NCBI RefSeq assembly: GCF_029318685.1
Contig: NZ_CP119677.1
Location: 620,001-684,000 of the forward strand
Source: Ruminiclostridium papyrosolvens DSM 2782
Lineage (GTDB): Bacteria; Bacillota; Clostridia; Acetivibrionales; DSM-1351
Reading direction: 5' to 3'
DNA: 64,000 bases
Shown here: positions 42,803 to 64,000 of the stretch, in pieces
Position numbering within the stretch: the stretch's first letter is position 1
Layout of the letters: every line of letters begins with the position of its first letter
Notes under the pieces: generated by a model
What the model was told of the DNA's origin: nothing
What the model saw: the letters and a program-made list of their open reading frames with translations, nothing else
The model's database searches: none
Translations under genes and position numbers: made by a program

Positions 42803-45139
42803 TTATATTTCTCTGACGATATCCCACAGACATACTGTATGTGCAGATAGCGTTGTGATAATGTTGAGGTCTGCTGTGATATCCAGATAGATGGTTCGCT
42901 CTTCAGGAATGCACGCCTGCGACAGATATTGAAGCTGCTTGGGCGAAGGATTATCTATTTTGTGTAAGTAAATATCCTCAGTAATATTGTTGCTTGCCAG
43001 CAAGCCACCTAATTGAATGTCTAGTGCACTTCCGTGACTTCTATCAAGAAGATAGCGGCGAATACGATATACTCCCGGTTTCAAGCCGGTCAGTTGAAAA
43101 TTTATTTGAACTGGCGGAACTTCTTCAAATATAGTATAAACATTTTTAAATGATTGTAAATCAGTTTCCTGCAAAAAAGTATGATTTGATAAATAAGCAA
43201 ATTGATAAGCCAAAATTTGATAGTGGTTATATTCACTTTGCGTTATACAGAAGTTTTCACCTTGTTCTATCAGCGAGCCTCCGAGTTTGTTTAGCAGTTC
43301 GTACGCGTAAAACGCAGGCATCTTTATTCCGCTTTTGGCAATAAGGCTAATACGGGACTGTGGACCAGTAGTTAGTTTTTTAGGATTGTAAGCTAAGTCA
43401 CTTAACATCCTGTAGCCGATAAGCTCTGAGTGTTCATGAAGATTTAGCAGGTTGTAGCAGAGAAATGCCGCTTGATAACAGGAATAATCAATAAATGTAT
43501 CAGCTAAAATTGATGAGTTGAATTCTGTAATATAAAGTGGTATTTCACGTCTGAAAACTTCTTTAATATTCTTTAATATCCATTTTTGTTTTTTTAGTAA
43601 TGAATCTTTATCAGGTGGCAATATAGGCATATTTTTATTAACTTCATTATAATGCTGAATTTCGAAAAAATATGCAGAAACAAAATCCGGAAATATATTC
43701 TCATTATAAAACGCCTCTAAACAAGAGGTGAAATCTTCCTGTTTCAAGCAGGTATCATATCCTGGCCCCCCCAACTTGGCGGAAGGAATATACTGGTGAA
43801 TAATAAAATGTATCTCTTGATATTCTTTAATATAGCTTGCCACCGATTCAAATTGAACCTTCCCAAACTCAAAAATCCACTGACTGTACCAGTTGGAATC
43901 ATAACGCAGTGTTATAAATTCAAGGAAAGCCGATAGCATCGACTGAAACTGTCTGTTTTTATGATATGCTCCTTTTCCTAATTCAATAAATGGAAGAGTG
44001 TTTTGTTCATAAAGAAAATCAAGGATTGCAGTGACATCTGCAAAATAATATTGATTATTCGGAGCAAGTGTTGGAATTAAAGCGTCACTTATAAGATTCT
44101 CTAAACGGACAAAGCAAAAGCTTAGCTTAATTTTGGCGTCGGCAAACTGCTTCTGAAAGCCGCTGAACAGCAAATTGCCTGCAGAGCCAATATTAATAAG
44201 TTTACAATAATTACAGTTTACCGGGGTGGAATGTTGCACATCAACGCAGATTTGTCTGCTGTGTATAAAGTTGCTGGAAATCAGATGTGTAGTTTCGGTG
44301 CTGTCCATAGGAAAATCATAATCCAGAGTTGTTGTCTGATGGTATTTTTTACGGTAATTCCTTGGAGAAATATGGTAAACTGAGCGGAAAAGCTTACTAA
44401 AGGTAGTCGCATTGAAAAATCCATGGCGTAATGCGATATCAGTAATGGAATCATTAGTGTAGCAGATATCACGTAAGGCATGCTGGATTCTAAGATGGTT
44501 TAAATATTCATTGAATTTTACATGAAAATGCTTCTTAAAGTATTTGGAAAGATACTGCTGGCTCATGGAAAGAGAATCTGCCAATGAGGCTAAAGTAATA
44601 GGCTGATTATAATTCCGATAAATATAATTTTGTATTACCTGAATTCTATCCTGATATTTTTCATTTTCCGTAATAGGGTTATCAGGTAATGATATCAGGT
44701 AATCTTTATGTAGGCAGTCCATAAGCTGAAATAGAAGCCCATAGATTGACAATTTATGGCTTGAGAAGTTGTCCAGATATTGAGAAGCTATACTGGATAG
44801 TAATCTCTTAAGAATTATATGATTACGGTTTGGCTCTAAGACAGAGTCACAGACAATCAGGCTATCCTGCCCAACATATTCTTCTAAAAAAGAGAGTAGG
44901 ATACCTAAATGCAGAATTATGTTGTTTCCTGCCGGTTCTAAGACATAGTCCTGATTACTATGCAGAGTAAAGACATTTCCGCTGGCATAAGTACGGCTTA
45001 ACGATTTGCTGGAAGAGATTATTATCTGACCTGAGATAATATAAATAATATCAAATGTCTTAGGTACTATATGGGTAGTCTGTGTAAGCTGGTATTGATG
45101 TAAAAAGGAAATTGGGAAATTTAGGTCATGTTTCATCAT
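42803..45139 (-). CDS. AraC regulator fused to a GH39-like domain (second of pair)
   Basis: A 778-residue protein: cupin-like N-terminus, AraC double HTH (about 175-280, 'SLSMSQQYLSKYFKKHFHVK' and 'HISPRNYRKKYHQ'), and a GH39 beta-xylosidase-like domain (about 310-690). The nucleophile Glu is kept in 'PLYITEFNSS'. Where GH39 enzymes have the acid/base in 'WNEP' this one has 'FEFGKVQFE', so the acid/base Glu is lost. It is most likely a sugar-sensing domain, not an enzyme. No signal peptide. Its ATG lies 14 bases inside the end of the preceding gene, so the two are coupled. The redox/transport cluster beginning at 47834 is the likely target. Confidence 0.85.
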   Translation of the reverse strand: MMKHDLNFPISFLHQYQLTQTTHIVPKTFDIIYIISGQIIISSSKSLSRTYASGNVFTLHSNQDYVLEPAGNNIILHLGILLSFLEEYVGQDSLIVCDSVLEPNRNHIILKRLLSSIASQYLDNFSSHKLSIYGLLFQLMDCLHKDYLISLPDNPITENEKYQDRIQVIQNYIYRNYNQPITLASLADSLSMSQQYLSKYFKKHFHVKFNEYLNHLRIQHALRDICYTNDSITDIALRHGFFNATTFSKLFRSVYHISPRNYRKKYHQTTTLDYDFPMDSTETTHLISSNFIHSRQICVDVQHSTPVNCNYCKLINIGSAGNLLFSGFQKQFADAKIKLSFCFVRLENLISDALIPTLAPNNQYYFADVTAILDFLYEQNTLPFIELGKGAYHKNRQFQSMLSAFLEFITLRYDSNWYSQWIFEFGKVQFESVASYIKEYQEIHFIIHQYIPSAKLGGPGYDTCLKQEDFTSCLEAFYNENIFPDFVSAYFFEIQHYNEVNKNMPILPPDKDSLLKKQKWILKNIKEVFRREIPLYITEFNSSILADTFIDYSCYQAAFLCYNLLNLHEHSELIGYRMLSDLAYNPKKLTTGPQSRISLIAKSGIKMPAFYAYELLNKLGGSLIEQGENFCITQSEYNHYQILAYQFAYLSNHTFLQETDLQSFKNVYTIFEEVPPVQINFQLTGLKPGVYRIRRYLLDRSHGSALDIQLGGLLASNNITEDIYLHKIDNPSPKQLQYLSQACIPEERTIYLDITADLNIITTLSAHTVCLWDIVREI

Positions 45140-47564
45140 TAATGCTCCTCTCGGTATTAGGTAAGGGGATGCTGTAATCTATTAACAACAGATGAATCTC
45201 CTGTGGGTTAAGTAGTATAGAAAACTCCAGAATTTTTTGTTCTGTAACCTTGATTGTGTACAGACTGAAGGCTGGTTTAGCAAGGGATTTAAAAAAATCG
45301 ATATCTTTTTTTTCATAAATATTGATAAAGGCACTTTTGTACCAGTTATATAAAATGTTGCCGTGTGTATGATTAATTGTGTTTACTTTAACTAAATAAT
45401 AACCCGGTTGCACATTATGCAAGCGGAAACGCATAAATTGCGGTGGAACAGCTTCAAAAAGTTGTTCTCCCAAAGTTAAATCTTGTAAACTAAGGTTATT
45501 ACTTGAAACTGCTTCCGTTATATGAGCATAATTAAAAAAGAGGCCCTGAAAACTGGTGCTTGAGCCGGAGGTGATGATATAGTTATCGCCCTTACTCAAC
45601 ATCGAAGCCCCTAGACTCTGGAAAAAAGAGTATATATAAAATGCGGGCTTGGGAATTCCTTGGTAACTATATAACCCATTTCCGCCAAACAGCATATTAT
45701 CTGAATCTGTATAACGTGTACTAACATCAGATAAGGAAAAGTAGGCTAAGCTATCTGCAATATCCAGATTTTGAATTAAATAGCGAGCCAGAAAGGTTGC
45801 CTGAAACAGAGTGTCATTCAGATGATTCCTGGCTGTATGGCAGGAATTAAATTCGCTTACCAAAATAGATACCCCGGGATATTTTTTATGGATAAATTCA
45901 ACGACATTTCTGGTTCTGTCATTTACTGTTTCCTTATCAAGTGAAAGATGCATATCCGCGCCGTAGCCTGTTGCAGAAAAAACCTGCATGCTTATAAAGT
46001 CAGGATGTATTTTGAGAGAGTCAAAGCTGCTCAGAATATTTTCCAGTTTTGTTAACGGCTCGTGAGTATTAAATCCCGGTCCGCCTACAATGCATTCAGG
46101 AACGATTGAGTGGATTACGGTCGTAATATTTTTAAAATAATTTGCATATTGTCCAAAAGTTAACTGTGAGGTATTATCGTAAAAATCATAGCAAATTTCA
46201 AACCTCCATTTTTTTACATAACTTATACCATAACGGTTACAGCTGCTCCTTATAAATTCAGGGAGGATTTGTAATAACCGATTATAATATATAATGGGCT
46301 GTTCTGCGTTATTTAGAACCTGTGTTTCCTGAAAATTAACGTTAATTTTTACAGGTCTGTTGCTCAACTCAAGAAAAGGAATCATATTCAGAGAGTCCAT
46401 CAGATCAATAATTTGATAAATGAGTTCAAAGCTGTATAGTTTTGTCCCATGAACCTGTTCAATACCAGCTAAGTCAAAAATTCTACAAATACGTCCATAA
46501 TTAAAGTGTACTTTTTCCTGAATTTCCCTAAGTTGACTTTGAAGATTCGGACTTATAAGCTGATAAGCAAATCCAAGATTTATGAGATACTTCCAAGAGT
46601 CAGAAACAGGCCTATGTTTAAGAATATTTATATCTGCTCTGGTGACCAGAGGTACCTGCCCTCTTTTTACTATCTGAAAAGTAGGGGGATCATCCGGCAG
46701 TTCTGAAAAAATGGAGTCGGGTTTTAAAATAATTGTCGCGTCATCAAAAGTTGACGGAACAGAAGGTAACCTGCTGTTTTTGCGAATATCATCTGCTGAA
46801 CAGTGATAATATAGCCGGATTGCTTTATGATAGCTTGTTAAATTCTGAAACCCCATAAAATCAGATATTTCTTGATCGGACAATTGTGTATAAATTAACC
46901 AGAAATAGCACTTTGATGCTTTTAACCGGTGAACGTATTCAATGAAAGTACATCCAAAGGATTTTTTAAAAAAAGCGGCCAGATATTGAGGAGTCAACCC
47001 GATTGCCTCAGCAGTATCCTGCAGTCTTAAGAAATCTTTTGAATGCATCTGTAAATATTCAAGGATTTCTCTATTTCTCTTTCCGTTTTCCCGGGTAGCA
47101 GCATCTGTACAAACTGATTCTGACACAAGGTGTTTCTGAATTATTGAGATACAGCAAAACAATTCAGAAAGGATTTCGTATTCATGCTCGTTTATGTTCA
47201 TATAATAACGTGCAATTAAAATTGCATGCGGATACAGGGTCTGTAAGTAAGGAGTCTTAATACTGCCATAAATCTTATCGAATAGGTTCTGACAATCCAG
47301 TGTGTTTAACAAAAACCAAGGCTTTATCTGAAGAATCAGACATAGAGCATATTTATCAGGTTTCAGGTTTACCGAAAGACCGGGGGGCAATAAAATTACA
47401 TCTGTCTGCAGATAATGAGAATGTTGATTTTCAAACTCAATACGAAGGCTTCCTTCTAACGTACAAAGTATTGAATAATCACAGAGACAGAGTGTAACCG
47501 GGTTAGTTATTTGGTGTACATTCAGTTGAGAAATTATTTGGGATATACGGTATTGTGGCTGCAT
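45126..47564 (-). CDS. AraC regulator fused to a GH39-like domain (first of pair)
   Basis: An 812-residue paralogue of the downstream gene with the same order: N-terminal cupin-like domain, AraC HTH (about 165-265), GH39-like domain (about 300-690; 'CIVGGPGFNTHEPLTK', 'YSYQGIPKPAFYIY'). The nucleophile is kept in 'ILVSEFNSCHT'; the acid/base position in 'RFEICYDFYD' appears to be Asp, not Glu. The start follows AGGAGG by 4-5 bases. It is transcribed away from the flavoprotein operon with 269 bases between start codons. Two related sensors may form a heterodimer; that is inference. Confidence 0.85.
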   Translation of the reverse strand: MQPQYRISQIISQLNVHQITNPVTLCLCDYSILCTLEGSLRIEFENQHSHYLQTDVILLPPGLSVNLKPDKYALCLILQIKPWFLLNTLDCQNLFDKIYGSIKTPYLQTLYPHAILIARYYMNINEHEYEILSELFCCISIIQKHLVSESVCTDAATRENGKRNREILEYLQMHSKDFLRLQDTAEAIGLTPQYLAAFFKKSFGCTFIEYVHRLKASKCYFWLIYTQLSDQEISDFMGFQNLTSYHKAIRLYYHCSADDIRKNSRLPSVPSTFDDATIILKPDSIFSELPDDPPTFQIVKRGQVPLVTRADINILKHRPVSDSWKYLINLGFAYQLISPNLQSQLREIQEKVHFNYGRICRIFDLAGIEQVHGTKLYSFELIYQIIDLMDSLNMIPFLELSNRPVKINVNFQETQVLNNAEQPIIYYNRLLQILPEFIRSSCNRYGISYVKKWRFEICYDFYDNTSQLTFGQYANYFKNITTVIHSIVPECIVGGPGFNTHEPLTKLENILSSFDSLKIHPDFISMQVFSATGYGADMHLSLDKETVNDRTRNVVEFIHKKYPGVSILVSEFNSCHTARNHLNDTLFQATFLARYLIQNLDIADSLAYFSLSDVSTRYTDSDNMLFGGNGLYSYQGIPKPAFYIYSFFQSLGASMLSKGDNYIITSGSSTSFQGLFFNYAHITEAVSSNNLSLQDLTLGEQLFEAVPPQFMRFRLHNVQPGYYLVKVNTINHTHGNILYNWYKSAFINIYEKKDIDFFKSLAKPAFSLYTIKVTEQKILEFSILLNPQEIHLLLIDYSIPLPNTERSINDET

Positions 47565-47833
47565 AATACCTCCTGAATTAATAAAGCTTTTTTATATTAT
47601 ATAAGATTTCAGATAAAGTATTCAATAAGTCTAAACAAAAAAATTAATAATATTACATAAAAATTAATATTTTTAGATGGAAAAGAAACAAAAATTGATT
47701 TAGTTCAAAAAATGATAGTATTAATAGAGAAAAAGAACTGCTGTGAACAAGAATATTGTCTGGTTTAAACCTATAATAAGAATAAATCAACTTACTATTA
47801 TGTTGACATAAGAAAGTGGAAGGTGGGGATATA
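47565..47833. other. Divergent intergenic region, regulators / redox operon
   Basis: Very AT-rich. It must hold promoters for both directions. I found no copy of the 12-base motif seen in front of the transporter operon, and no clear palindrome. Confidence 0.4.
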
Positions 47834-49288
47834 TTGAAAATATATGAAACACAAATTGCTATAATTGCTGCCGGTCCTTCAGGTTTGTCTGCTGCTGTGC
47901 AGGCAGCGCAGGATGGCGCTAAAGTGATTTTGCTGGAAAAAGCAGCAACAATCGGAGGGGCGGCTAATATGGGAATGGGGCCGTTGGGAATTGGTTCACG
48001 CTATCAAAAAGAACAGATGATTGATCTATCTGTTGAAAAGGCATTTAATATGTTCATGGACTACACACATTATAATGTAGACGCACGCTTGATTAAACGC
48101 TATTTTTCACAGTCTGCTGATACAATTGCATGGTTGGAGGATATAGGTGTTGAATTTGAAGGAGCTTTTCGCTATTTTCCACAATCAGAAGCTACCTGGC
48201 ATATTGTAAAAACAGATAAGGGAATAGGTCCGAGAGCAGCCTCTTTTATGAACAGAGCTTTATATGAGAAAGCGCTGGAATTAGGAGTAACAGTATTGCT
48301 GGAGCACCCTGTACAGGAAATACTGAAAAAAGATGGGAAAGTCATTGGTGTAACAGCAAAAGATCCATCCGGAGAGGAGGTACGCATCAACTGTAACGCA
48401 GCTATTATCTGTACCGGAGGGGCAGGGGCAAATAAACAGATGATTAAAGAAATGACTGGGCTGGAACATGGAAAAACAGTGTTTAACTTCGCTATTCCGG
48501 GAGTCGTAGGCGATGGACTAAAGATGGCTTGGGAGGCAGGAGCAGGCAGGATGCCGGTGCGTATTGAGGCCGCAGCGGATACAGGAGGCGGTGAAGCAGT
48601 AACAGCAGGGGTTACCAACATCATGCGGCAGCCGAATTTGCTGGTAAATAGGTTTGGAAAAAGAATTATGAATGAAGATTATATGCAAAACACTACTTAT
48701 TTGAGTAATGTTGCCTGTCACCAGAAAGATAAAGTATGCTTCAGTATCGTTGATACATCGATAGTAAAATATTATATTAAAAACGGAGTAGATGTTACCA
48801 GTCTTGTGCAGCCTGATGCGGATGTATCTGATTTTTATGAAGGAATTGAAATGGTGATCAAGAACGGTTCAAAGAATTACTTTGTGGCGGATTCCATTGA
48901 AGAGCTGGCTGAAAAAGCAGGGATAGATGTGGAAAACCTGAGAAAAACCATAGACGATTATAATTATTTCTGTGACAGCCGTGATCAGGAATTCTTTAAA
49001 AACCCAAAATATCTACGTCCGCTGTTTAAGCCGCCTTATTATGCGGCTGCCATTCATCCGGGAGGATATGGTACTGTAGGCGGTGTGAGGATAAATGAAA
49101 ACTGTGAGGCATGTGCCGATGATTATTTGCCTATTCCGGGCTTATATTGTGCGGGTGCAGACTCCTGCAATATTTATGATGACAGCTATATGTTTTTACT
49201 TCCCGGTAACTCTATGGGATATGCAGTAAATACAGGAAGAATTGCCGGAATGAGTGCGGCAAACTATATAAAAGGGGAGGAGGCATAA
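47834..49288 (+). CDS. Fumarate-reductase-like flavoprotein (FAD-dependent oxidoreductase)
   Basis: A 484-residue FAD_binding_2 protein. The start is TTG at 47834 (GGTGGGG 6 bases upstream); this gives 'MKIYETQIAIIAAGPSGLSA', the FAD dinucleotide fold, in which the first Gly of GxGxxG is Ala. Other FAD contacts are 'LLEKAATIGGAANMGMG' and the C-terminal 'PIPGLYCAGADSCN ... NSMGYAVNTGRIAG'. The active-site region 'HPGGYGTVGGVRIN' resembles the His/Arg segment of fumarate reductase-type enzymes. No signal peptide or heme motifs, so it is soluble and should exchange electrons with the two iron-sulfur proteins encoded next (2-base gap, then 4-base overlap). Substrate unknown. Confidence 0.88.
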   Translation: MKIYETQIAIIAAGPSGLSAAVQAAQDGAKVILLEKAATIGGAANMGMGPLGIGSRYQKEQMIDLSVEKAFNMFMDYTHYNVDARLIKRYFSQSADTIAWLEDIGVEFEGAFRYFPQSEATWHIVKTDKGIGPRAASFMNRALYEKALELGVTVLLEHPVQEILKKDGKVIGVTAKDPSGEEVRINCNAAIICTGGAGANKQMIKEMTGLEHGKTVFNFAIPGVVGDGLKMAWEAGAGRMPVRIEAAADTGGGEAVTAGVTNIMRQPNLLVNRFGKRIMNEDYMQNTTYLSNVACHQKDKVCFSIVDTSIVKYYIKNGVDVTSLVQPDADVSDFYEGIEMVIKNGSKNYFVADSIEELAEKAGIDVENLRKTIDDYNYFCDSRDQEFFKNPKYLRPLFKPPYYAAAIHPGGYGTVGGVRINENCEACADDYLPIPGLYCAGADSCNIYDDSYMFLLPGNSMGYAVNTGRIAGMSAANYIKGEEA

Positions 49289-53322: not shown

Positions 53323-53378
53323 ATCATATCGTTAAAAAAAAGACATGTCAATACTTTTTTTTATAAATTTGCAAAAGT
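53323..53378 (-). promoter_or_regulatory. VOC gene promoter with upstream 12-base motif
   Basis: On the minus strand TTGACA (53346-53351), a 17-base spacer and TATGAT (53323-53328) make a good promoter. The motif ATTTGCAAAAGT (plus-strand reading, 53367-53378) lies 15 bases upstream of the -35 box. Confidence 0.65.
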
Positions 53379-53546
53379 AAAAAAGAAAGATATACAATAA
53401 AATTTGTATTTATATCCGAAGTAACTTAAAATTCCATATTGGCATATTGGAATACCAAATCTTACCACAAGAAATTTATACTTTTTATATCTTGTGTAAA
53501 TAAGGTTTAGTAGGCTTTTCCAGTATTCAATGACTTTATTTTATAT

Positions 53547-53599
53547 ATTTACAAAAGTAATAAATTAAGATTGACAAATTAACATGCTTATGAAATAAT
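53547..53599 (+). promoter_or_regulatory. ABC operon promoter with upstream 12-base motif
   Basis: TTGACA (53571-53576), a 17-base spacer and AATAAT (53594-53599). ATTTACAAAAGT (53547-53558) ends 12 bases before the -35 box. Leader length would be about 107 bases. Confidence 0.6.
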
Positions 53600-55928: not shown

Positions 55929-57436
55929 TGAGCCAGAATGAAATTATTTTTGAAGCAAAAGGAATAAATAAATATTTTGGCCCTACTCATGCAAACCGTG
56001 ATATTGATTTTGCAGTAAAGCGGGGAGAAATCCATGCATTAGCTGGTGAAAATGGTTCAGGTAAATCCACATTGTTAAGCATAATTTGCGGAATTCAACA
56101 GTGTGATATTGGAAGTATGGTTATAAATGGTGAAGAATATTCACCAAAAAATCCAATTGAAGCAAATGCAAAGAAAATAGGATTTGTTGTTCAGGAATTA
56201 GGTCTTATCAATACTTTATCCGTTGCAGTGAATATGTATATCGGACGTATGGAAAAGTATAAAAAGTTTGGAGTCCTCAATATGAATCGGATTTATGAAG
56301 ATGCCAAAAAGGAACTGAAAAAGTATGATTTCGAAGCTATTAATCCAAGATATCCTGCGGGAGCTCTGTCTGTTGAGAATAGGAAAATTGTTGAGGTAGT
56401 AAAAGCACTATCAGTTGCACCTGATATTCTGATACTGGATGAGACAACGCAAGCATTATCATATGATAATCGAAAAAAGTTATATACAATCATTCAGAAA
56501 GCAAAAGAGTTAGGAGTAGCTGTTTTACTTGTAACACATGATCTGGAGGAAATGGTAGAATTGGCGGACACTGTTACTGTTCTCAGAGATGGTGCCGTAT
56601 CGGCTAATCTGTCCGGAAGTGATATTACTGTAGATAAAATCAGGACTGCGATGGTAGGACGTAAAATGGTAGGTAGCTATTATCGTACCGATTATGGAGT
56701 GCCAATAGATGATGAAGTTACACTGCGTGTAGAGAATTTGTGCGTAAAAAATTGCTTCGAAAATATTAGCTTTGATTTACATAAGGGAGAAATTTTGGCA
56801 CTTTGCGGATTATCTGATGCAGGAATCCATGAAGTGGGAAAAGCATTAACAGGTGTAATAAAACCTTCATCAGGTAAAGTTCAAGAAATGGAGAAAAAAA
56901 CGTTCATTAAAAACCCCGGAGACGCAATTGCTGCTAAGATTGCATATGTTCCAAAAGACAGAGATCGTGAAGCTCTTATGATGAATACAACTATACGAGC
57001 TAATCTCTATATGCCATCTGCAAAGGAACTGGCTGGAAAGCTAAGATTTATATTACCTAGAGCCGTTTCAAAATTAGCAAAAGATGCTTCTGAAAAGTTT
57101 AATGTACGGTGCCTTGGGATTGATCAGGCAATAAGTGCACTGTCTGGTGGAAATAAGCAAAAAATAAGTATTGGTAGATGGCTCATCAAGGATTTAAATA
57201 TACTGGTTATGGATTGCCCTACTCGTGGGGTAGATGTATCAGTTAAACAATATATTTATAGTTTGATGCAGGAACTGAAGGCAGAAGGAAAATCTATGAT
57301 ATTGATTGCAGATGAAATGGCAGAAGCAATCGGTATGGCGGACAGACTGTTTGTTATGAAAAATGGAAAAGAATCCGGTATTCTTGAAAGAAGTGAGCAA
57401 CTTACGGAATCACAGGTAATTGAGGTGATGATATGA
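55928..57436 (+). CDS. Sugar ABC transporter ATPase (RbsA type, two domains)
   Basis: A 502-residue double-ATPase. The first domain has Walker A 'AGENGSGKSTLL', Walker B 'ILILDETTQAL' and the loop 'LLVTHDLEEM'. Its signature motif is weak ('ALSVENRKIVEV'). The second domain starts after about residue 250 with a degenerate Walker A ('ALCGLSDAGIHEVGKAL') and keeps signature 'LSGGNKQKISIGRWL' and 'VMDCPTRGVDV'. This asymmetry is normal for RbsA. The ATG at 55928 follows AGGAGG by 7 bases. Its TGA overlaps the next ATG (ATGA). Confidence 0.94.
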   Translation: MSQNEIIFEAKGINKYFGPTHANRDIDFAVKRGEIHALAGENGSGKSTLLSIICGIQQCDIGSMVINGEEYSPKNPIEANAKKIGFVVQELGLINTLSVAVNMYIGRMEKYKKFGVLNMNRIYEDAKKELKKYDFEAINPRYPAGALSVENRKIVEVVKALSVAPDILILDETTQALSYDNRKKLYTIIQKAKELGVAVLLVTHDLEEMVELADTVTVLRDGAVSANLSGSDITVDKIRTAMVGRKMVGSYYRTDYGVPIDDEVTLRVENLCVKNCFENISFDLHKGEILALCGLSDAGIHEVGKALTGVIKPSSGKVQEMEKKTFIKNPGDAIAAKIAYVPKDRDREALMMNTTIRANLYMPSAKELAGKLRFILPRAVSKLAKDASEKFNVRCLGIDQAISALSGGNKQKISIGRWLIKDLNILVMDCPTRGVDVSVKQYIYSLMQELKAEGKSMILIADEMAEAIGMADRLFVMKNGKESGILERSEQLTESQVIEVMI

Positions 57437-58413
57437 AAAATAAAATTAGAATCCCTTGGGGGAGTTTTGCACCGGCACTTTTTATATTATTTCTTATAAC
57501 AGTCTTTGCTGTAATAACCGGTGGAAAATTGGTACAAGCCAATACACTTAAATCTTTATTGACACAGTCTATCGGATATTTGATAGGTGGTCTTGGAATG
57601 ATTTTTGTTATGGCACTGGGAGAAATAGATATGTCGCTTGGTGTCAATATTGCCTTTTCTTGTACGACTGCCTCAATGCTGGTTGGGGATAAGGGGTGGC
57701 TTGCAGTTGTTTTAGTGAGTCTTGTTATAGGTGCATTGGTTGGAGGCATTAATGCATTTTTTGTTTCAGTGTTTCATGTACAGGGCTTCATGGTTACAAT
57801 TGCTCTGCAAATTGGACTTAGAGGAGCTATAAAAGGATTGTTTTTATTATTGCCGGAGGGGCGTATAGCATTTTCTCCAGAAATTCTAGCGTTTAATACA
57901 TTATCAATAAAGCTAACTATACTTCTGATTGTTACAATAGTTGTTATATATCTTATGGAATTTTCGACTTTTGGAAGCTGGCTGAAGGCGGTTGGAGAAA
58001 ATGAAGTATGTGCTTATATAACGGGAATTCCGGTAAAAAAGATTAAGGCAGCAGCATATATCTTATGTGGTCTTTTTACAGGTGTTGCAGCACTATTTAT
58101 GTGCAGCCGTCAAGGCGGTGTGACAAGTGATACCGGTTCAGGGTTTGAAATGACAGTAATGCTTGGAATGTTTTTAGGCGGTATCCCTGTAGAAGGTGGT
58201 ATGGAAACAAAAGTATACAAAGCAATTATTGGTATCCCCTGTCTTATTATTATTCAGAGTGGATTAACAATACTTGGTGTAAGTGCCGGTATTTATCAGT
58301 TTGTAGAAGCTGTAATTCTATTGGCAGTAATTATAATGTCACATTTCTTTAAAGATTATTCAAGAAAGCGTGATGATAAGATTATGGCACAGATTTCTTT
58401 AGAGAGTAAGTAA
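57433..58413 (+). CDS. Sugar ABC transporter permease (RbsC type), second
   Basis: A 326-residue permease with the same fold as the first and typical RbsC motifs ('IGYLIGGLGMIFVMALGEID', 'LKAVGENEVCAYITGIPV'). It ends in a basic cytoplasmic tail. Overlaps the ATPase gene by 4 bases (translational coupling). The aldo/keto reductase follows 39 bases later. Confidence 0.93.
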   Translation: MKNKIRIPWGSFAPALFILFLITVFAVITGGKLVQANTLKSLLTQSIGYLIGGLGMIFVMALGEIDMSLGVNIAFSCTTASMLVGDKGWLAVVLVSLVIGALVGGINAFFVSVFHVQGFMVTIALQIGLRGAIKGLFLLLPEGRIAFSPEILAFNTLSIKLTILLIVTIVVIYLMEFSTFGSWLKAVGENEVCAYITGIPVKKIKAAAYILCGLFTGVAALFMCSRQGGVTSDTGSGFEMTVMLGMFLGGIPVEGGMETKVYKAIIGIPCLIIIQSGLTILGVSAGIYQFVEAVILLAVIIMSHFFKDYSRKRDDKIMAQISLESK

Positions 58414-58452: not shown

Positions 58453-59427
58453 ATGGAATACTCAAAATTTAATTCGATTGACAAGAAAGTGAGCCGCTTT
58501 ATCGTTGGTACTATGTCGATAGTTGACAAGGAAGACCTTAAAGAAGACTTTGAAAGACTGGATACCGCAGTAGAGATGGGCATTAACACTCTCGATACTG
58601 CGATGGGATATGGAAGGGGTACAACTGAAATAGCTCTTGGTAAGTATTTCAAAAGCAGAGGAAACAGAGATCAAATTTTCCTGATTAGTAAAGCTTGCCA
58701 CCCGTCACCATGGAGAACACGTGTAAATACGTTTGATTTGGAAGCAGATTTAAATGATGCACTTGTAAAAATGAATACAGATTATATTGATTTATATATG
58801 CTTCACCGCGATGATGTTACCAAACCTGTAGGACCTATTATAGATACGTTGTACAAATATTATAAAGCCGGAAAAATTCTTGGTTATGGTGTTTCAAACT
58901 GGACTGTTGAAAGAATAGAAGAAGCCAATAATTATGCAAAGGCTAATAATATGCCTGCACTTATTGTATCAAGCCCAAATTACAGCTTGGCACAGCAATA
59001 CGCAGAACCATGGGCACCAGGATGTATTACAATCAGCGGACCTGAAAACAAAAAGTCTCAGGATTGGTACATAGCTAATCAAATGCCTGTGCTTGCATAT
59101 TCCAGCATGGCACGTGGTTTATTCTCAGGAAGAATAACTCGTGAACAGTGGTTGAACCGTCCGGAGGAAATTGATCCTGTATGCATGAAAGCATATTGTG
59201 GTGATACAAACTTTACCAGACTTGAACGTGCTGAACAGTTAGCAAAAGAAAAGGGTGCATCCATTCCTCAGATTGCACTTGCTTTTATCCTTTGCGGTGA
59301 AATGAATGTATTTCCAATAATAGGTGCTGCTAATAAAGAAGAGTTGACATCCAGTATCGGATCATTGCTTGTAAAACTTACCAAGGAAGAAGTAGAATGG
59401 TTGGATTTAAAAAGAGATAACAGATAA
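58453..59427 (+). CDS. Aldo/keto reductase
   Basis: A 324-residue NAD(P)H-dependent TIM-barrel oxidoreductase. The catalytic tetrad can be seen: Asp and Tyr in 'LDTAMGYGRGTTE', Lys in 'IFLISKACH' and His in 'LYMLHRDD'. The cofactor-binding end is 'FPIIGAANKEELTSSI'. Start follows AAAGGAG by 9 bases. Being in the transporter operon, it may reduce a keto-sugar or aldehyde formed from the imported compound. Confidence 0.92.
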   Translation: MEYSKFNSIDKKVSRFIVGTMSIVDKEDLKEDFERLDTAVEMGINTLDTAMGYGRGTTEIALGKYFKSRGNRDQIFLISKACHPSPWRTRVNTFDLEADLNDALVKMNTDYIDLYMLHRDDVTKPVGPIIDTLYKYYKAGKILGYGVSNWTVERIEEANNYAKANNMPALIVSSPNYSLAQQYAEPWAPGCITISGPENKKSQDWYIANQMPVLAYSSMARGLFSGRITREQWLNRPEEIDPVCMKAYCGDTNFTRLERAEQLAKEKGASIPQIALAFILCGEMNVFPIIGAANKEELTSSIGSLLVKLTKEEVEWLDLKRDNR

Positions 59428-59520: not shown

Positions 59521-60492
59521 ATGAAAGTACTTGGAATTTCTTTTGGAAGAAAAAATGGCAATTGCGATATTCTAATGAAGCAAGCACTTCTAGGTGCAAT
59601 AAAAACAGGTGCAGAAGTAAGCTTTATGAATACCTGCAACTTGAAAATTGACCGGTGCACAGGATGCGGTGCTTGTGACAAGGTAAGGGACAGAGGCGGA
59701 ATGTCTCTGTGTGTACTGAAGGATGATTTTTTGTTCGTACGTGAAGCGATTATGGATGCGGATGCATTAATGGTAGCGGCTCCTGTATATTCAGTAGGAC
59801 CGACAGGCCAGTATAAAAATCTTGTGGATCGTATGGGGGCATCTCATGACCGTGCAGCTCTGTTGAAAGAAAATCAGAGAAGGCGTAGTCTTGGGTGGGG
59901 CGAGGATAAAATGTTAGATCCCCGGGTATTTAAAAATCGTCCGTTTGCTGTGATTTCAGTAGGAGGTGCCCGCACAGAAGGATGGACATCCCTGGGACTT
60001 CCAAACCTGCATTTGCTGGGATTTTCAAATCAGATGATACCGGTGGATCATATTAATGCATACGGAATGGGAGATAGAGTTAATCCGGCCTTTGATGAAA
60101 AATTTATGAACCGTCTTTTTAAATTGGGAGAAAATGTGGCAGGAGCAGCAGGTATGCCGGAAGAGCAGATAGAATGGAAAGGTGATGATGCGGGTATGTG
60201 CCCAACGTGTCATTGCAGGCATCTGTTCATAAAGAGCGGAACAGAGGTGGAATGTGCTGTCTGTGGTTCGGCAGGAACTCTGAGGATTGATGGCGGAGAG
60301 ATAAAGGTTGATTATACGGAAGAGGAAATAAAACGCTCAAGGTATCATATGGGCGGGTTGCTAGAGCATCAAGAGGAAATTTCCGATATGATGGTGAATG
60401 TCTCAAAAGTACTGGCAAAGCGTGGAGGAGAACTGGAGCAATTGTTATCCCCTCTAAAGGACATACCGGAGATAAAACCGACAAAGCTTTGA
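59521..60492 (+). CDS. NAD(P)H-dependent FMN reductase with Cys motif and zinc ribbon
   Basis: A 323-residue flavodoxin-fold protein: N-terminal 'LGISFGRKNGNCDILMKQAL' (FMN phosphate loop), a Cys cluster 'CTGCGACDKVRDRGG ... C', the flavin contact 'MVAAPVYSVGPTGQYKNLVD', and a C-terminal zinc ribbon ('CPTCHCRHLF', 'CAVCGSAG'). The extension makes it about 100 residues longer than ordinary family members. It could reduce quinones, enones or free flavin. Same strand and spacing suggest it belongs with the operon. Confidence 0.82.
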   Translation: MKVLGISFGRKNGNCDILMKQALLGAIKTGAEVSFMNTCNLKIDRCTGCGACDKVRDRGGMSLCVLKDDFLFVREAIMDADALMVAAPVYSVGPTGQYKNLVDRMGASHDRAALLKENQRRRSLGWGEDKMLDPRVFKNRPFAVISVGGARTEGWTSLGLPNLHLLGFSNQMIPVDHINAYGMGDRVNPAFDEKFMNRLFKLGENVAGAAGMPEEQIEWKGDDAGMCPTCHCRHLFIKSGTEVECAVCGSAGTLRIDGGEIKVDYTEEEIKRSRYHMGGLLEHQEEISDMMVNVSKVLAKRGGELEQLLSPLKDIPEIKPTKL

Positions 60493-60519: not shown

Positions 60520-61047
60520 TTGAAAGAGACGTTAGTTGACTTAAAAAACAGACGCAGCGTAAAGAAATTTAAAAAAGAGCAAATTAAGGATGAAGAATTA
60601 ATGGAAGTAATACAGGCTGGCATGAATGCTCCTACAGGTGGAAACAAACAGTCACCCGTATTTATTGTGGTTCAGAATCCTGAATTGTTGCATAAATTGT
60701 CCGTACTGAATGCACAAATAGCAGGAGCACCGGAGGGAGTGGATCCTTTCTATGGTGCTCCTACAGTAATCCTTGTTCTTGCAGAAAAAGGTCTTGGAAA
60801 TCCTGTAGAGGATGGCAGCCTTGCAATCGGTAATATGCTTAATGCAGCTTATTCTATTGGTCTGGGCAGTCGCTGGATTAATAGGGTACGGGAAACTTTT
60901 GAAACAAACCTCGGAAAGGAAATTATAAGGGAAAGCGGATACATAGGAGAGTATGTAGGGGTTGGATCGTGTATTCTGGGATATCCCGAGGGAGGATATC
61001 CGGAGCCCCTACAAAAAAAGGATAATTATTTTAAAATAATAAGGTAG
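60520..61047 (+). CDS. Nitroreductase-family FMN protein
   Basis: A 175-residue nitroreductase-fold enzyme. 'NRRSVKKFKKEQIKDEEL' is the FMN-binding N-terminus, 'AGMNAPTGGNKQSPVFIVV' the second contact, and 'GVGSCILGYPEG' the C-terminal loop. The start is TTG at 60520 with AAGAAGG 9 bases upstream. Family members reduce nitro groups, quinones or enones with NAD(P)H, or remove iodine or hydrogen. Follows the FMN reductase by 27 bases. Confidence 0.9.
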   Translation: MKETLVDLKNRRSVKKFKKEQIKDEELMEVIQAGMNAPTGGNKQSPVFIVVQNPELLHKLSVLNAQIAGAPEGVDPFYGAPTVILVLAEKGLGNPVEDGSLAIGNMLNAAYSIGLGSRWINRVRETFETNLGKEIIRESGYIGEYVGVGSCILGYPEGGYPEPLQKKDNYFKIIR

Positions 61048-61117: not shown

Positions 61118-62224
61118 ATGGAAAATAAAAATAATAGCGAAGTTAGAATTAATAACATAAAAAGAGTGATTAATATACTATTTCATCAAGGACCAATGAC
61201 AAAGCAGGAACTAGCATTTAAGCTTGACATAAGTTTGCCTACTGTTACAGTAATCATGAAAGAATTATCGTCAAGGGGTCTGATTACTAATGGAGAGGTA
61301 CTTAAGTCAACAGGTGGAAGAAAACCAGTCCGTATAACACCTGTGTTTGATGCAAAATACTCAATTGGTATTGAAGTCTCTATGAATGAAATGCGGATAG
61401 TATTAGTTGATCTGGGTCCGAAGAAGGTTGCTGTTGAACGGTATCCTCTAGGTGTTCAGAACACAAGAGAATATTGGGAGCATGTTAATACTATTCTAAT
61501 GGATTTTATTAATAGGAATTTAGCAGAAAAGGAAAAATTGCTGGGAGTAGGTATAGCTCTTCAGGTGCCGATTAAGGAGAAGAAAGTAGTATTGTCAAAA
61601 AACATGCCATCAAATCTAAGTATTGATCTTAATATGGCAGAAGCTTGTTTTGAACTACCGGTTGTATTCTACAGCAGCGGAAAAATGGCGGCTATATCTC
61701 AGATATGGGCACTGAATGAATGTGATAATTTCATTTTCCTTTCAATTGGTTCCTATATGGCAGGTGCAATTATTCACAATGGACAGATTGTAGGATTCTC
61801 TGACAGAAACGGAGAATTTGGAAATATGCTTATCAGTAACGATAACAAAAATAAAAAATTTGAGGATTATTGTACCAGTCGTGCAATTTGCGAAAAATCC
61901 GGCTTATCGGTTAAAGAATTCTTTAAATTATTGGAGCAGGATAATGAGGAATGCATAAAAATATGGGATGAATATCTAGATATGCTTAGTGTGTGCCTGC
62001 ATAATATCCATTGTGTTTTTGACTGGAATATTGTTATCGGCGGTGAAATGAGTGAATACATTGATAGATATTGGTCTGAAATTAAGTCACGGCTAGATGA
62101 TTTGACAGATTATAACGATGAGTCTACATCTTATGTGAAGATTAGTGACTTGGGTGTATTTGGACCTGCGGTAGGTGCGGCATTGACACAGAATGACAGA
62201 TTCCTTAATTTTGATTATGAATAA
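61118..62224 (+). CDS. ROK-family transcriptional repressor
   Basis: A 368-residue XylR/NagC-like regulator: winged HTH (about 10-75, 'MTKQELAFKLDISLPTVTVI') and a ROK sugar-binding domain (about 85-360). The ROK zinc motif (GHxxxxxxxxxCxCGxxGC) is absent; there is 'YCTSRAICEKSG' instead. The ATP loop is weak as in other ROK regulators. It is probably the local repressor, released by a pathway intermediate. It shares an operon with the enzymes upstream or has its own weak promoter. Confidence 0.9.
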   Translation: MENKNNSEVRINNIKRVINILFHQGPMTKQELAFKLDISLPTVTVIMKELSSRGLITNGEVLKSTGGRKPVRITPVFDAKYSIGIEVSMNEMRIVLVDLGPKKVAVERYPLGVQNTREYWEHVNTILMDFINRNLAEKEKLLGVGIALQVPIKEKKVVLSKNMPSNLSIDLNMAEACFELPVVFYSSGKMAAISQIWALNECDNFIFLSIGSYMAGAIIHNGQIVGFSDRNGEFGNMLISNDNKNKKFEDYCTSRAICEKSGLSVKEFFKLLEQDNEECIKIWDEYLDMLSVCLHNIHCVFDWNIVIGGEMSEYIDRYWSEIKSRLDDLTDYNDESTSYVKISDLGVFGPAVGAALTQNDRFLNFDYE

Positions 62225-62251: not shown

Positions 62252-62286
62252 GAACTGCTCACTCACTATTTTAAAGTGAGCGGTTC
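62252..62286 (+). terminator. Hairpin after the ROK gene
   Basis: 12-base arms (one G-U) with an 11-base loop, 27 bases after the stop. No T-tract follows, so terminator status is moderate. Confidence 0.55.
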
Positions 62287-62418
62287 TCTGATAAGCATAC
62301 CCTTTTTGATTGTTAGTCTTTAAACTCACATCTGAATTTATCATTTTTATTTTAAATAACCCATTTATTTAACACCGTAAAATAACGTAGAATATTTTAA
62401 CTAGACTTAATTTTATAG

Positions 62419-62460
62419 TTTTGCAAAAGTGTTGACGATTCAATAATAATCTTCTATTAT
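62419..62460 (+). promoter_or_regulatory. Isomerase-gene promoter with 12-base motif
   Basis: TTGACG (62432-62437), 17-base spacer, TATTAT (62455-62460). TTTTGCAAAAGT (62419-62430) ends one base before the -35 box and includes the perfect palindrome TTTTGCAAAA. Confidence 0.6.
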
Positions 62461-62500
62461 TATAATAGATATAACAAAACGAAAATCAGGAGGTAGCGAT

Positions 62501-63460
62501 ATGAAAACTAGCATTAGCACTGAGTTGGTTGATCTACATCATCAAGCTCCTAACCGCAATCGACGTGAAAGCAAATACTATTGGGATGAGCTTTATTCAC
62601 ACATTAGTGCGGCAGGATTTACATCTATTGAAATTCCATATGAACCTAAATGGGATTTTGGGGGCAGATCAGGTATTCCGCTCACTTTACGTTCTATAAC
62701 AACTAAGTTTGAAACTGTAGACAACTATATACGTACACTGAATTCTTATGGCATTGATGGTATAGTAAGTGTTCATCTTGACCCTACTATTTTCTGTTCA
62801 GGAAATATGCAGATGTATTTTGGAGCCTTTTCCCACTTTGCTACAGATGCTATCACTTTTGCAAAAGAGGCAAATGCAGAGGTTGTTACATTAACTGCTA
62901 CACCTTCCTACTATGCTGTTTCTTCACTGTGTGGTAAGGATCAAGCATTTGACATTTTTGAGGAAGAATTTCTTAATAAAACAGCGGAAGCTATTGATTC
63001 ACTCGCTGATATTGCTGAAAAGGCGGGTATTAAGTTATGCGTTAAAAATGAGTATTGGGGCTTGCTCCGTGGAGATAAAATCGTATCATTCCTTAAAAGA
63101 TTAAAGAAACAAGTTTACCTGGATATTGATACAGCAAATATACAAATAGCCGGTGTGGATGTACCTTCTTTTATATATAAAAATATAGATAAGATTGGAA
63201 TTGTACATTTTACTGATACTTCTTTTGTAGATTGTGAAGAAGCTTATAAGCAGCCGCTTCCTGAATTCCCATCCCAAAATGCAACGAAGGTATTTCGTGA
63301 TATAGGACAGGGGAATGTAGATTTTCAGGCAATATACGCTGCATTAAAAGATGTTAATTATGGCGGGTGCATTGTCTATAATTGCAGACATTCGTATAAT
63401 TCCTGTCGTTCACTTTTAAGAACACGCTACTATATCAAGAATACGCTTGGTGAAAAATAA
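62501..63460 (+). CDS. TIM-barrel sugar isomerase/epimerase-like protein
   Basis: A 319-residue AP_endonuc_2-type (xylose isomerase-like) TIM barrel. It opens 'TELVDLHHQAPNRNRRESKY' and has likely metal ligands in 'LCVKNEYWGLLR' (Glu), 'VYLDIDTANIQIAG' (Asp), 'IGIVHFTDTSF' (His, Asp) and near 'DIGQGNVDFQAIYAAL' . Start follows AGGAGG by 8 bases. The substrate may be a keto-sugar. A related gene follows 14 bases later, so the two may form a hetero-complex. Confidence 0.85.
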   Translation: MKTSISTELVDLHHQAPNRNRRESKYYWDELYSHISAAGFTSIEIPYEPKWDFGGRSGIPLTLRSITTKFETVDNYIRTLNSYGIDGIVSVHLDPTIFCSGNMQMYFGAFSHFATDAITFAKEANAEVVTLTATPSYYAVSSLCGKDQAFDIFEEEFLNKTAEAIDSLADIAEKAGIKLCVKNEYWGLLRGDKIVSFLKRLKKQVYLDIDTANIQIAGVDVPSFIYKNIDKIGIVHFTDTSFVDCEEAYKQPLPEFPSQNATKVFRDIGQGNVDFQAIYAALKDVNYGGCIVYNCRHSYNSCRSLLRTRYYIKNTLGEK

Positions 63461-63474
63461 AGGGAGGTTGTCAC

Positions 63475-64000
63475 ATGTCAAATATAAAGCTTTCTCATAT
63501 GAGTCATTGGAAAACAATACCTTATAAGAAAATTAACAATTTTAGAGATTTTTATTATGAGGATAAAAGTAATGTGCCATACTACATGGACTGGGATAAA
63601 ATTCTACGCTATCATGCGGCAACAGGATATGAGGGAATAGAACTGGCACCGTGGGATTTATCAGAAATACTTGGTTTGTTCCATACGCCAAAGGAATATG
63701 TTGATTTTGCAGCTGGCTATGGTATTAGCGTCAGCGGTATGTTCCACGGAGCGGATAATTCATTTATTGCTGATAAATATGACGAAGTCCTTCAAGCTGG
63801 CAAGTCAGCCATTGATACGTGCAAAGCATTCGGAGGCAAGCATTTGAATATGTGTCCTGCAAATAACTACTACGGTGTTGGTCCTCTTGATGATGAGGCA
63901 CTGAAAAATGCTGCCAAGGTAATAACAGATATCGGACGTTATGCGGTAGACAATGGTATACAAATTGGTCTACATAATGAGTTTTTCTGTGCAGTTAATA
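63475..64000 (+). CDS. Second TIM-barrel sugar isomerase/epimerase-like protein (partial)
   Basis: Starts at ATG 63475 after GGGAGG and is open to the right edge (175 codons visible). It begins 'MSNIKLSHMSHWKTIPYKKI' and contains 'HAATGYEGIELAPWDLSEIL', 'GISVSGMFHGADN' and 'NGIQIGLHNEFFCAVN', typical of the xylose isomerase-like TIM-barrel family with a metal-ligand Glu in the last segment. The C-terminal third is outside the window. It is the second member of an isomerase pair and shows that the operon continues. Confidence 0.85.
   Translation, partial: MSNIKLSHMSHWKTIPYKKINNFRDFYYEDKSNVPYYMDWDKILRYHAATGYEGIELAPWDLSEILGLFHTPKEYVDFAAGYGISVSGMFHGADNSFIADKYDEVLQAGKSAIDTCKAFGGKHLNMCPANNYYGVGPLDDEALKNAAKVITDIGRYAVDNGIQIGLHNEFFCAVN

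Follow-up and report, generated by a model that had tools for sequence, protein, structure and literature searches.

The question raised by this locus of Ruminiclostridium papyrosolvens DSM 2782 is what a putative flavin- and iron-sulfur-containing complex does beside genes of glycoside-breakdown type. The locus begins in bases 620001–684000 of the single-contig genome of 5.03 Mb (NZ_CP119677.1; G000 in our genome comparison), a stretch of 64,000 nucleotides hereinafter referred to as the window, and continues past its right end. It harbors two AraC-type regulators fused to GH39 domains, three consecutive genes encoding a flavoprotein, a NuoG-GltD subunit and a NuoF-like subunit (hereinafter the trio), an ABC importer, and an operon of three TIM-barrel proteins (TIM1, TIM2, and TIM3) and a Gfo/Idh/MocA oxidoreductase (Gfo). 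As a whole, it was best explained by the import of a plant-derived aromatic glycoside of polyphenol type, with an O-linkage more probable than a C-linkage, its cleavage without a classical glycosidase, and reduction of the aglycone by the trio, a reading that we consider moderately probable. It builds on features read directly from the sequence, namely which genes are present, fused, or located together, the cluster ligands, the replacement of the dicarboxylate site, and the absence of an FMN motif.

Subunits of the redox trio

The trio was compared among 80 loci taken from an alignment of the NuoG-GltD subunit. These are the best 80 of at least 582 relatives (at least 594 pattern matches), a set selected for closeness and not at random; many are cut by contig ends, and L075 is the same record as L013/L014. 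They comprise a close clade, in which the flavoprotein is at least 60% identical (33 loci), a distant clade (30 loci), and 17 loci without flavoprotein. The flavoprotein was present in 63 loci and a separate NuoF-like gene in 61, with fusions of the two in 11 more; some of the loci lacking a separate NuoF-like gene or flavoprotein sit on short contigs.

The predicted catalytic subunit, a close-clade FAD flavoprotein of the fumarate-reductase/ketosteroid-dehydrogenase type, is encoded at 47816..49288 on the + strand (FAD_binding_2, 154 bits). Its best NCBIfam model was vinyl phenol reductase, at 290.6 bits and below the cut-off of 600. In an alignment with Fcc3 fumarate reductase, A, Q, G, and L stood at the positions of H365, R402, H504, and R544, of which we take Arg402 to be catalytic and the other three to be substrate residues. 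The 33 close-clade sequences, including that of the window, had A (30) or S (3), Q (33), G (33), and L (33) at these positions, and 30 distant-clade sequences mostly had Y (29), G (28), G (30), and T (28), residues that indicate different pockets in the two clades. Since the Fcc3 site residues are replaced, a fumarate or dicarboxylate reductase was rejected.

The second subunit (49291..51414, + strand), assigned from Pfam matches and cluster ligands, joins NuoG-like and GltD-like parts and is a relative of StnC and NfnA. Its nearest chains were NfnA-type (424.7 and 408.2 bits) and StnC (344.5 bits). In 81/81 sequences, no change was seen at Lys291, at Arg361, or at any of the 21 listed cluster ligands. 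Lys291 aligned with the lysine of the StnC and NfnA rows, while two NfnB-type rows have glutamate; every one of the 81 sequences thus had the StnC-like GltD part with a lysine at the proximal cluster that characterizes the Bfu/Stn proteins. In StnABC, the FAD of the GltD domain is reported to take electrons from NADPH without bifurcation and to pass them on via clusters (PMC10482914). Given this precedent and the StnC-type lysine, NAD(P)H would probably enter the trio at the GltD-domain FAD. Bifurcation at this FAD was judged less likely, the proximal residue being the lysine of StnC, which is reported to be non-bifurcating (PMC10482914).

The third subunit (51411..52652, + strand) was called NuoF-like in the initial annotation, a name that is borne out by its NuoF-type 4Fe-4S and ferredoxin domains but does not extend to an ordinary NADH-binding NuoF. 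Its matches to HydB, NfnB, and StnB chains were confined to the C-terminal part, the nine best starting at residues 181–219. Among 66 sequences, 15 of the 16 cysteines from residue 234 onward were kept in 62 to 66, and Cys359 in 41. The ferredoxin-like C-terminus carried the full 2x[4Fe-4S] pattern in 60/68 proteins, and the trio is possibly ferredoxin-linked in view of this conserved part. In contrast, a glycine-rich FMN loop or NADH-loop pattern was found in none of the 68 NuoF-like proteins, using general patterns that matched no other open reading frame of the loci and therefore had no positive control. NADH entry via an ordinary NuoF site was rejected on this ground. Membership of the Bfu family was also rejected, as the definition by its authors includes an FMN-binding BfuB with an NAD(H) site and neither pattern was recognized here.

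The NuoF-like subunit and the flavoprotein formed one polypeptide in 11/80 loci, three of the close and eight of the distant clade (L057, L058, L062, L066, L068, L074, L079, L082, L089, L093, and L100). These natural gene fusions argue that the two subunits bind each other. The structure of the fusion protein from L074 was predicted with AlphaFold (mean pLDDT 83, pTM 0.61), and its Foldseek matches included fumarate reductases, urocanate reductase, ketosteroid dehydrogenases, and cyclohexanone dehydrogenases. Against HydB, NfnB, and StnB, the model mostly aligned over about 450 columns, gaps included, with a root-mean-square deviation mostly of 7 to 10 and TM 0.43–0.58 by target, in a match list without alignment coordinates. 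Together, the HydB-type matches, fusions, and Foldseek results suggest an iron-sulfur conduit to the flavoprotein, and from sequence and model the subunit looks like a HydB scaffold with the wires kept and the flavin motif lost. Judging from the model, its N-terminal fold still looks HydB-like, and loose binding of FMN is possible.

With dehydrogenases among the Foldseek matches, the flavoprotein might instead work in the oxidative direction, as a glycoside dehydrogenase that delivers electrons to NAD(P)+ via the other two subunits. With NAD(P)+ as acceptor, forming the 3-ketone of a sugar is an uphill reaction, which counts against this alternative, as do the reductase identity of the nearest named model and the Gfo oxidoreductase already encoded in the operon. 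We regard it as highly improbable, even with the precedent of the Agrobacterium tumefaciens pathway, which begins with the flavin dehydrogenase GlycDH (PMC10628242).

Compared with the bifurcating transhydrogenases StnABC and NfnABC of the Bfu family (PMC10482914, PMC9304861), the trio shares the NuoG-GltD and HydB-type subunits, the cluster ligands, and the StnC-type lysine. It differs in that its HydB-type subunit is without an FMN/NADH pattern, that a fumarate-reductase-like flavoprotein is added, and that no thioredoxin-like HydC/StnA gene was identified among the neighbors read in the window. No description of the trio was found among the best matches listed in open-licence literature, which is not proof of absence from print; as far as these searches tell, it is apparently an undescribed assembly. 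A relative of the trio in L016 (G041:C65) lies beside OYE-type, kinase-type, and apparent 2-oxoacid:ferredoxin oxidoreductase genes, which were named by reading their sequences.

Putative enzymes of the sugar side

The initial annotation had proposed an oxidize-eliminate-reduce breakdown of a glycoside, modeled on the C-glycoside-cleaving Dgp systems, and had predicted that a Gfo/Idh/MocA gene and a DUF6379 partner would lie to the right. The operon indeed continues past the window end with a third TIM barrel (TIM3; L003:4411-5400) directly followed by the Gfo gene (L003:5426-6577), 411 to 2577 bases beyond base 64000. TIM3 matched 2zds over nearly its whole length (347.5 bits) and 8ro4, deposited as a 2-hydroxy-3-keto-glucal hydratase, with 181.6 bits (residues 19–325 of 329 aligned). 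We take 8ro4 to be AtHYD. Glu, Asp, His, and Glu of metal-type motifs, presumably the metal ligands, coincided by eye in this alignment. With Gfo present and TIM3 homologous to a solved keto-glucal hydratase, the general scheme was partly supported; its C-glycoside part was not.

CGDB (DUF6379, PF19906), the beta subunit of Dgp systems, had no match anywhere in the genome in a PF19906 profile search that gave matches above cut-off in 5/391 genomes of the class and 34/396 of one family. The predicted DUF6379 partner was thus not found in the genome, which makes Dgp-type cleavage of a C-glycoside unlikely, and a full Dgp system was rejected for the same reason. An O-glycoside variant of an oxidize-eliminate-hydrate-reduce route fits better.

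TIM1 (62501..63460, + strand) and TIM2 (63475..63999, + strand, cut by the window end; complete as L003:3475-4395; AP_endonuc_2, 94.9 bits) are both AP_endonuc_2 barrels. TIM2 keeps the metal-type motifs. TIM1, assigned by Pfam and by alignment with the TIM2 family, is a diverged paralogue of TIM2 (21% identity) whose metal site is degenerate: the last metal-type Glu is replaced by Asn, and the His is gone too in two relatives. The two genes were neighbors in this locus, at two places in G026, and at one place in Faecalicatena orotica (L048). From this side-by-side pairing and the motifs kept in one and lost in the other, TIM2 is a candidate 3-keto-glycoside β-eliminase and TIM1 its probable non-catalytic partner. 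TIM2 also matched 8ro4 weakly (29.2 bits). Further weak matches were to sugar isomerase-like and glucuronide-3-dehydrogenase chains (8tcd, 8tcs, 8tct, and 8tdi), by TIM2 (8tct, 8tcs, and 8tcd; 21.6–25.8 bits) and by Gfo (29 bits); these structures presumably belong to a gut 3-keto-glycoside pathway.

The TIM-Gfo operon might alternatively serve a cyclitol/inositol-type pathway (IolE/IolG-like) without glycoside cleavage. TIM1, TIM2, and TIM3 do match the IolE model (44.1, 75.6, and 52.1 bits), far below the cut-off of 290, and among solved structures IolE scored highest with both TIM1 and TIM2. TIM3, however, is much nearer to the keto-glucal hydratase than to the IolE structure (27.4 bits), and TIM2 relatives and the close-clade trio occur in CGDB genomes, as described below. 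We therefore hold an inositol-type role to be very unlikely and retain glycoside elimination.

In A. tumefaciens, the GlycDH-AtOGE-AtHYD-Gfo pathway is reported to proceed by β-elimination of a 3-keto-glycoside, proposed hydration of 2-hydroxy-3-keto-glucal, and reduction of 3-keto-glucose by a Gfo enzyme (PMC10628242). The locus resembles this O-glycoside pathway in its oxidize-eliminate-hydrate-reduce logic, in the homology of TIM3 to 8ro4, and in the Gfo oxidoreductase of the operon. In contrast, no GMC flavin dehydrogenase was found among the locus proteins given to Pfam (the genome was not searched for one), TIM1 and TIM2 are without an eliminase-named match, and the redox trio and aglycone-type enzymes are extra here.

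The Dgp/Dfg clusters of Dorea PUE, Eubacterium cellulosolvens, and Catenibacillus likewise contain Gfo plus AP_endonuc_2 proteins (PMC8563793, PMC11170127), and trio relatives lie within 12 kb of CGDB in 10/12 sampled copies; unlike them, the genome studied here is without CGDB/DUF6379, and its Gfo gave only 32.1–39.1 bits to DgpA entries. A two-gene DfgCD system is reported to cleave O-glucosides (PMC11170127), and by analogy appears the better model than Dgp C-glycoside cleavage. The sugar-operon genes recur together in G026, a genome of the same taxonomic order (TIM3 78%, Gfo 64–68%, and TIM2 44 and 58% identity), together with VOC (47%), buk (53%), ptb (49%), and CocE (62%) genes.

Distribution of the trio and its neighbors

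Across the 80 loci, Dgp-type genes accompanied the close clade more often than the distant clade (Fisher's test, close vs. distant), although loci from related genomes do not count as independent. CGDB, whose identity was Pfam-confirmed on two representatives, occurred in 14/33 close-clade loci, 3/30 distant-clade loci, and 1/17 loci without flavoprotein (p 0.0046). Corresponding counts were 15/33, 2/30, and 1/17 for the CGD alpha-type barrel (p 0.00057), 16/33, 4/30, and 2/17 for Dgp-type Gfo (p 0.0033), 9/33, 0/30, and 0/17 for TIM3-type barrels (p 0.0022), and 13/33, 1/30, and 2/17 for GH39 (p 0.00059). An eliminase- or hydratase-type barrel was present in 16/33 close-clade and 4/30 distant-clade loci. 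FMN reductase genes were near the trio in 16/33 close-clade and 7/30 distant-clade loci (p 0.066), and no significant difference between the clades was found for CocE (5 vs. 1), ptb (4 vs. 2), buk (3 vs. 2), VOC (4 vs. 0), nitroreductase (5 vs. 0), or TIM2 (1 vs. 0). The OYE profile was left out of this comparison, as it matches other proteins too (33/33, 30/30, and three control stretches).

In a stricter test, 396 genomes were sampled evenly from one family (inferred to be Lachnospiraceae). The close-clade flavoprotein was found in 12 copies in 12 genomes of 11 genera, all of which had CGDB (12/12, hypergeometric p 2e-14), and 10/12 copies lay within 12 kb of it. The distant clade was represented by 34 copies in 27 genomes, with 0/34 within 12 kb of CGDB; scoring was limited to the top three flavoprotein candidates of each genome and may have missed some of the distant-clade copies. 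The genomes of a family are related, and these p-values overstate independence. TIM2 relatives (E 1e-50) were present in 4/396 genomes, three of them with the close-clade flavoprotein (p 8e-5), and in two of these TIM2 lay 5.2 and 10.7 kb from the flavoprotein. The gene association is thus real and recurrent. A PucR-type regulator (Pfam on one representative) was found in 20/30 distant-clade and no close-clade loci, which suggests that the distant clade probably has a different substrate.

In L043, from an uncultured member of Eubacteriales, a TIM3-type barrel, Gfo, CGDB, CGD alpha, the flavoprotein, NuoG-GltD, and NuoF-like genes were all located within 22 kb, with homologs of the run of genes to the right of our operon: CocE (83%), ptb (77%), buk (76%), MFS (63%), and OYE (79%). 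This content argues that the right-hand run belongs to the same kind of island. Genes of that run (L003:7880-20000) have counterparts with 60–88% identity in the vicinity of the trio in L026, L027, L039, and L043. The neighborhood comparison, by which the initial annotation could have been refuted, bore it out: trio and AraC-GH39 relatives adjoin Dgp-type genes elsewhere, although the set is not fixed. Two further resemblances were seen beside the flavoprotein of other loci. A nitroreductase 66–69% identical to that of the window was located there in L045, L046, L050, and L090, and L094 has, next to its close-clade flavoprotein, a VOC protein that shares 60% identity with that of the window.

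Putative regulatory sites and AraC-GH39 proteins

Three operator-like 21-mers were found by pattern search, all on the + strand: upstream of the promoter-like site of the VOC gene (53359..53379), upstream of that of the importer's substrate-binding protein (SBP) gene (53539..53559), and abutting that of TIM1 (62411..62431). The pattern TTTTATANNTTTRCAAAAGTR was composed from these three sites (53359, 53539, and 62411); besides them, no place in the 5.03 Mb genome had fewer than 2 mismatches, and up to 2 mismatches gave 6 genome matches vs. 2 for the reversed control pattern. A single-site probe, which is the fairer test, gave 2 further sites with at most 3 mismatches vs. 0.04 expected in the window. 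The 21-mers lie upstream of the −35 element of the promoter-like sequences for VOC, SBP, and TIM1 and end at distances of 7, 11, and 0 bases from it, a placement that is activator-like, as judged from sequence; promoter-like matches as such hardly exceed chance in the region (69 vs. 57.9). The shared promoter motifs proposed initially are therefore retained for VOC, the importer, and the TIM-Gfo operon but not for the trio.

The AraC-GH39 proteins A (42803..45139, − strand; HTH_18 77.6 bits, GH39 54.9 bits) and B (45126..47564, − strand, overlapping A by 14 bases; HTH_18 39.1 bits, GH39 122.3 bits) are encoded divergently from the trio, and A is a likely ligand-sensing activator. The motif NEP, which we assume to be the acid/base motif of GH39, was not found in A or B, and TEFN, presumably nucleophile-like, was kept in A. 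Among 24 GH39-type frames of the loci and the window, several of them contig-cut, no NEP was found in a GH39 context, in a survey without a positive control; of four NEP triplets, three were in the AraC part and one stood in an unrelated context at residue 344 of an L056 frame.

GH39 was surveyed in 50 hand-chosen genomes (E 0.001, 111 rows). It was detected in 12/12 close-clade genomes, in the genome of the window, in 8/10 CGDB genomes without a flavoprotein match (one of them below cut-off), in 4/7 genomes with only the distant clade (G467, G559, G641, and G688), and in 3/20 with neither; the sole match in G463 was below cut-off. The proximity test took 84 of the 111 rows, to which CGDB genomes contributed 68 long and 7 short frames. 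Dropped rows were second pieces of one gene, matches below cut-off, a few frames above 1500 aa, those of the window's genome, and most frames shorter than 750 aa; among the last was G659:C116 (588 aa), which adjoins CGDB. Long frames of AraC-GH39 size, the AraC part being judged from frame length, lay within 12 kb of CGDB in 31/68 cases vs. 2.5 expected by random placement, and 14 lay within 12 kb of the close-clade flavoprotein, in 8/12 genomes. The number of GH39 genes is reported as 28 in Catenibacillus decagia and as 21 in C. scindens, whose tests for β-glucosidase and xylosidase were negative (PMC11170127); a sensor role of AraC-GH39-type proteins may account for both numbers.

Proposed pathway and its weighing

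We infer every reaction and substrate of the following pathway from the gene content. The AraC-GH39 proteins would sense the glycoside and activate its import by the ABC transporter. Gfo would oxidize the sugar at C3, TIM2, with its degenerate partner TIM1, would eliminate the aglycone, TIM3 would hydrate the resulting 2-hydroxy-3-keto-glucal, and either Gfo or the aldo/keto reductase would return the 3-keto-sugar to glucose. The soluble three-subunit complex would then reduce the aglycone at a C=C bond, with electrons passing from NAD(P)H to the GltD-domain FAD, through the NuoG-type and HydB-type clusters, and to the FAD of the fumarate-reductase-like subunit. Further processing of the aglycone may involve the VOC protein, two OYE-type flavoenzymes, and FMN reductase.

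Six Pfam families, Oxidored_FMN+Pyr_redox_2, FAD_binding_2, FMN_red, Glyoxalase_4, AP_endonuc_2, and GFO_IDH_MocA, each hold characterized polyphenol enzymes (PMC8824206 Table 1), and all six occur at this locus at the level of Pfam matches. A polyphenol utilization gene cluster (PGC) in the sense of that paper has at least two homologs of polyphenol enzymes near each other; here the likeness was assessed at the level of Pfam families. The flavoprotein shares the FAD_binding_2 fold with plant-compound enzymes such as Cgr2 of Eggerthella, vinyl phenol reductase, and polyphenol family OR4 (PMC8824206). Cgr2 reduces digoxin (PMC5953540), and the donor proposed for it is a membrane-linked haem protein, in contrast to the soluble NAD(P)H-to-FAD iron-sulfur wire that would serve the trio. 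The Adlercreutzia equol cluster, which is induced as a unit, is similar in that its reductases are accompanied by a racemase and by an electron-transfer protein pair of their own, but that pair is described as an electron flavoprotein, and no glycoside-elimination genes are mentioned in the part of the report available to us (PMC6566806).

DgpA is reported to recycle its NAD with 3-oxo-glucose (PMC11239390). The sugar half can therefore be redox-neutral, and the aglycone is the more likely electron sink for a dedicated complex that consumes NAD(P)H. The opposite assignment, in which the trio works on the sugar side by reducing 2-hydroxy-3-keto-glucal or the 3-keto-sugar, or merely re-oxidizes NADH, draws on the chemistry of the elimination product, 2-hydroxy-3-keto-glycal, itself an α,β-unsaturated ketone (PMC10628242), on the ketosteroid and cyclohexanone dehydrogenases among the Foldseek matches, and on the way the close clade tracks CGDB across 11 genera. 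Besides the redox balance, it is opposed by TIM3, a hydratase homolog already available for that intermediate, and by the aglycone-type CocE, ptb, buk, or OYE genes found with trio relatives in L026, L043, L051, and L075 (the last distant-clade). We consider a sugar-side role unlikely.

Several observations weigh against glycoside use with aglycone reduction by the trio. The Pfam-level likeness to polyphenol enzymes is broad. On the sugar side, the nearest solved structure of TIM1 (28.6 bits) and TIM2 (45.4 bits) is IolE, neither had an eliminase-named match among solved structures at E 0.001, and Gfo gave 32.1–39.1 bits with three DgpA entries vs. 246–334 bits with other Gfo structures. CGDB was also found in 3/30 distant-clade loci and 1/17 loci without flavoprotein, and genomes with the distant clade were CGDB-enriched too (16/27, p 1e-12). 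That clade thus prefers CGDB genomes but not CGDB neighborhoods, none of its 34 copies being within 12 kb. Further, no copy of the 21-mer preceded the flavoprotein or trio in the genome pattern search, and 17/33 close-clade loci, several on short contigs, were without an eliminase- or hydratase-type barrel, i.e., the trio is not tied to glycosides.

The missing operator-like site and the many relatives in loci without glycoside-elimination genes would also suit an arrangement by chance or island assembly, in which the trio, importer, and TIM-Gfo operon serve different substrates. Such an arrangement is rather improbable in view of the 10/12 close-clade copies less than 12 kb from CGDB vs. 0/34 of the distant clade, and of the paired AraC-GH39 genes found near the trio, as here, in L078, L080, L087, and L098. 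A more specific proposal, which we put forward tentatively and rate somewhat below even, is that the trio is a soluble C=C reductase of a new class, dependent on NAD(P)H and possibly ferredoxin-linked as well, in which a Stn/HydB-type scaffold has lost its bifurcating FMN site and gained a fumarate-reductase-like subunit on its iron-sulfur wire; that Dgp-type glycoside metabolism in gut Clostridia has its missing aglycone-reducing half in the close clade; and that control is exerted by the AraC regulators, with GH39 domains that are glycoside sensors and not glycosidases.

Other genes of the locus

Every gene listed in the initial annotation was an open frame at its claimed position and with its claimed family, as judged by Pfam profile matches: AraC-HTH + GH39 (two genes), FAD_binding_2, Fer2/NuoG + Fer4_20 + Pyr_redox_2, NuoF-type 4Fe-4S + ferredoxin, Glyoxalase_4, Peripla_BP_4, BPD_transp_2 (two genes), ABC_tran, aldo/keto reductase, FMN_red, nitroreductase, ROK, and AP_endonuc_2. 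Tight coupling was likewise confirmed, with gaps of −4 to +93 bases within three gene runs: 2 and −4 from the flavoprotein to NuoF; 20, −4, −4, 39, 93, 27, and 70 from SBP to ROK; and 14, 15, and 25 from TIM1 to Gfo.

Next to the trio, an epimerase- or racemase-like VOC/Glyoxalase_4 protein is encoded on the − strand (52789..53286; PF13669, 51.3 bits); it scored 38.3 bits with the methylmalonyl-CoA epimerase model, whose cut-off is 114.95. The + strand run that follows encodes the importer, consisting of SBP (53713..54924; Peripla_BP_4, 39.8 bits), permease 1 (54945..55928; BPD_transp_2, 43.8 bits), a double ATPase (55925..57436; ABC_tran in two stretches), and permease 2 (57433..58413; BPD_transp_2, 95.8 bits). 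It continues with an aldo/keto reductase, a candidate 3-keto-sugar or carbonyl reductase (58453..59427; PF00248, 182.7 bits), an FMN_red flavodoxin-type reductase (59521..60492; PF03358, 51.2 bits) with CxxC at 46, 227, and 245, the two further pairs being C-terminal, a nitroreductase-family protein (60520..61047; PF00881, 66.2 bits), and a ROK repressor (61118..62224; PF00480, 61.4 bits, and HTH matches).

Beyond Gfo, an ACPS-like and a TetR-like gene (TetR_N, 21.4 bits, below the cut-off of 24) lie on the opposite strand. The + strand run then encodes a CocE/S15-type hydrolase, a PTA_PTB-type protein (ptb), an acetokinase-family protein (buk), an iron alcohol dehydrogenase, an MFS transporter, a protein without Pfam match, a D-2-hydroxyacid dehydrogenase-like protein, and an OYE-type flavoenzyme; a second gene was assigned to the OYE type by its reading frame and because it clusters with the first. 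To the left of the locus, a frame of 746 aa (40489-42729) resembled a methyl-accepting chemotaxis receptor by eye.

Origin and implications

The flavoprotein was not found at E 1e-100 in 10 other species of the genus, and a search for TIM2 at E 1e-50 in 58 genomes from the order gave matches only in G000 and G026. It is plausible that the locus was acquired from outside the genus. The GC content of the trio (0.41–0.43) falls within the spread of the rest of the window (0.27 to 0.43), so composition alone says little on origin.

If glycoside use with aglycone reduction by the trio is the true reading, the locus shows what may follow the release of a polyphenol from its sugar in anaerobes, namely a complex with its own electron supply through which the aglycone would become an electron sink. 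The trio would then be a testable partner for the known C-glycoside-cleaving genes and a case of a bifurcating scaffold reused without the bifurcating flavin. The reading of GH39 as a sensor domain would, in addition, offer a simple explanation of the large numbers of GH39 genes in Catenibacillus (PMC11170127).

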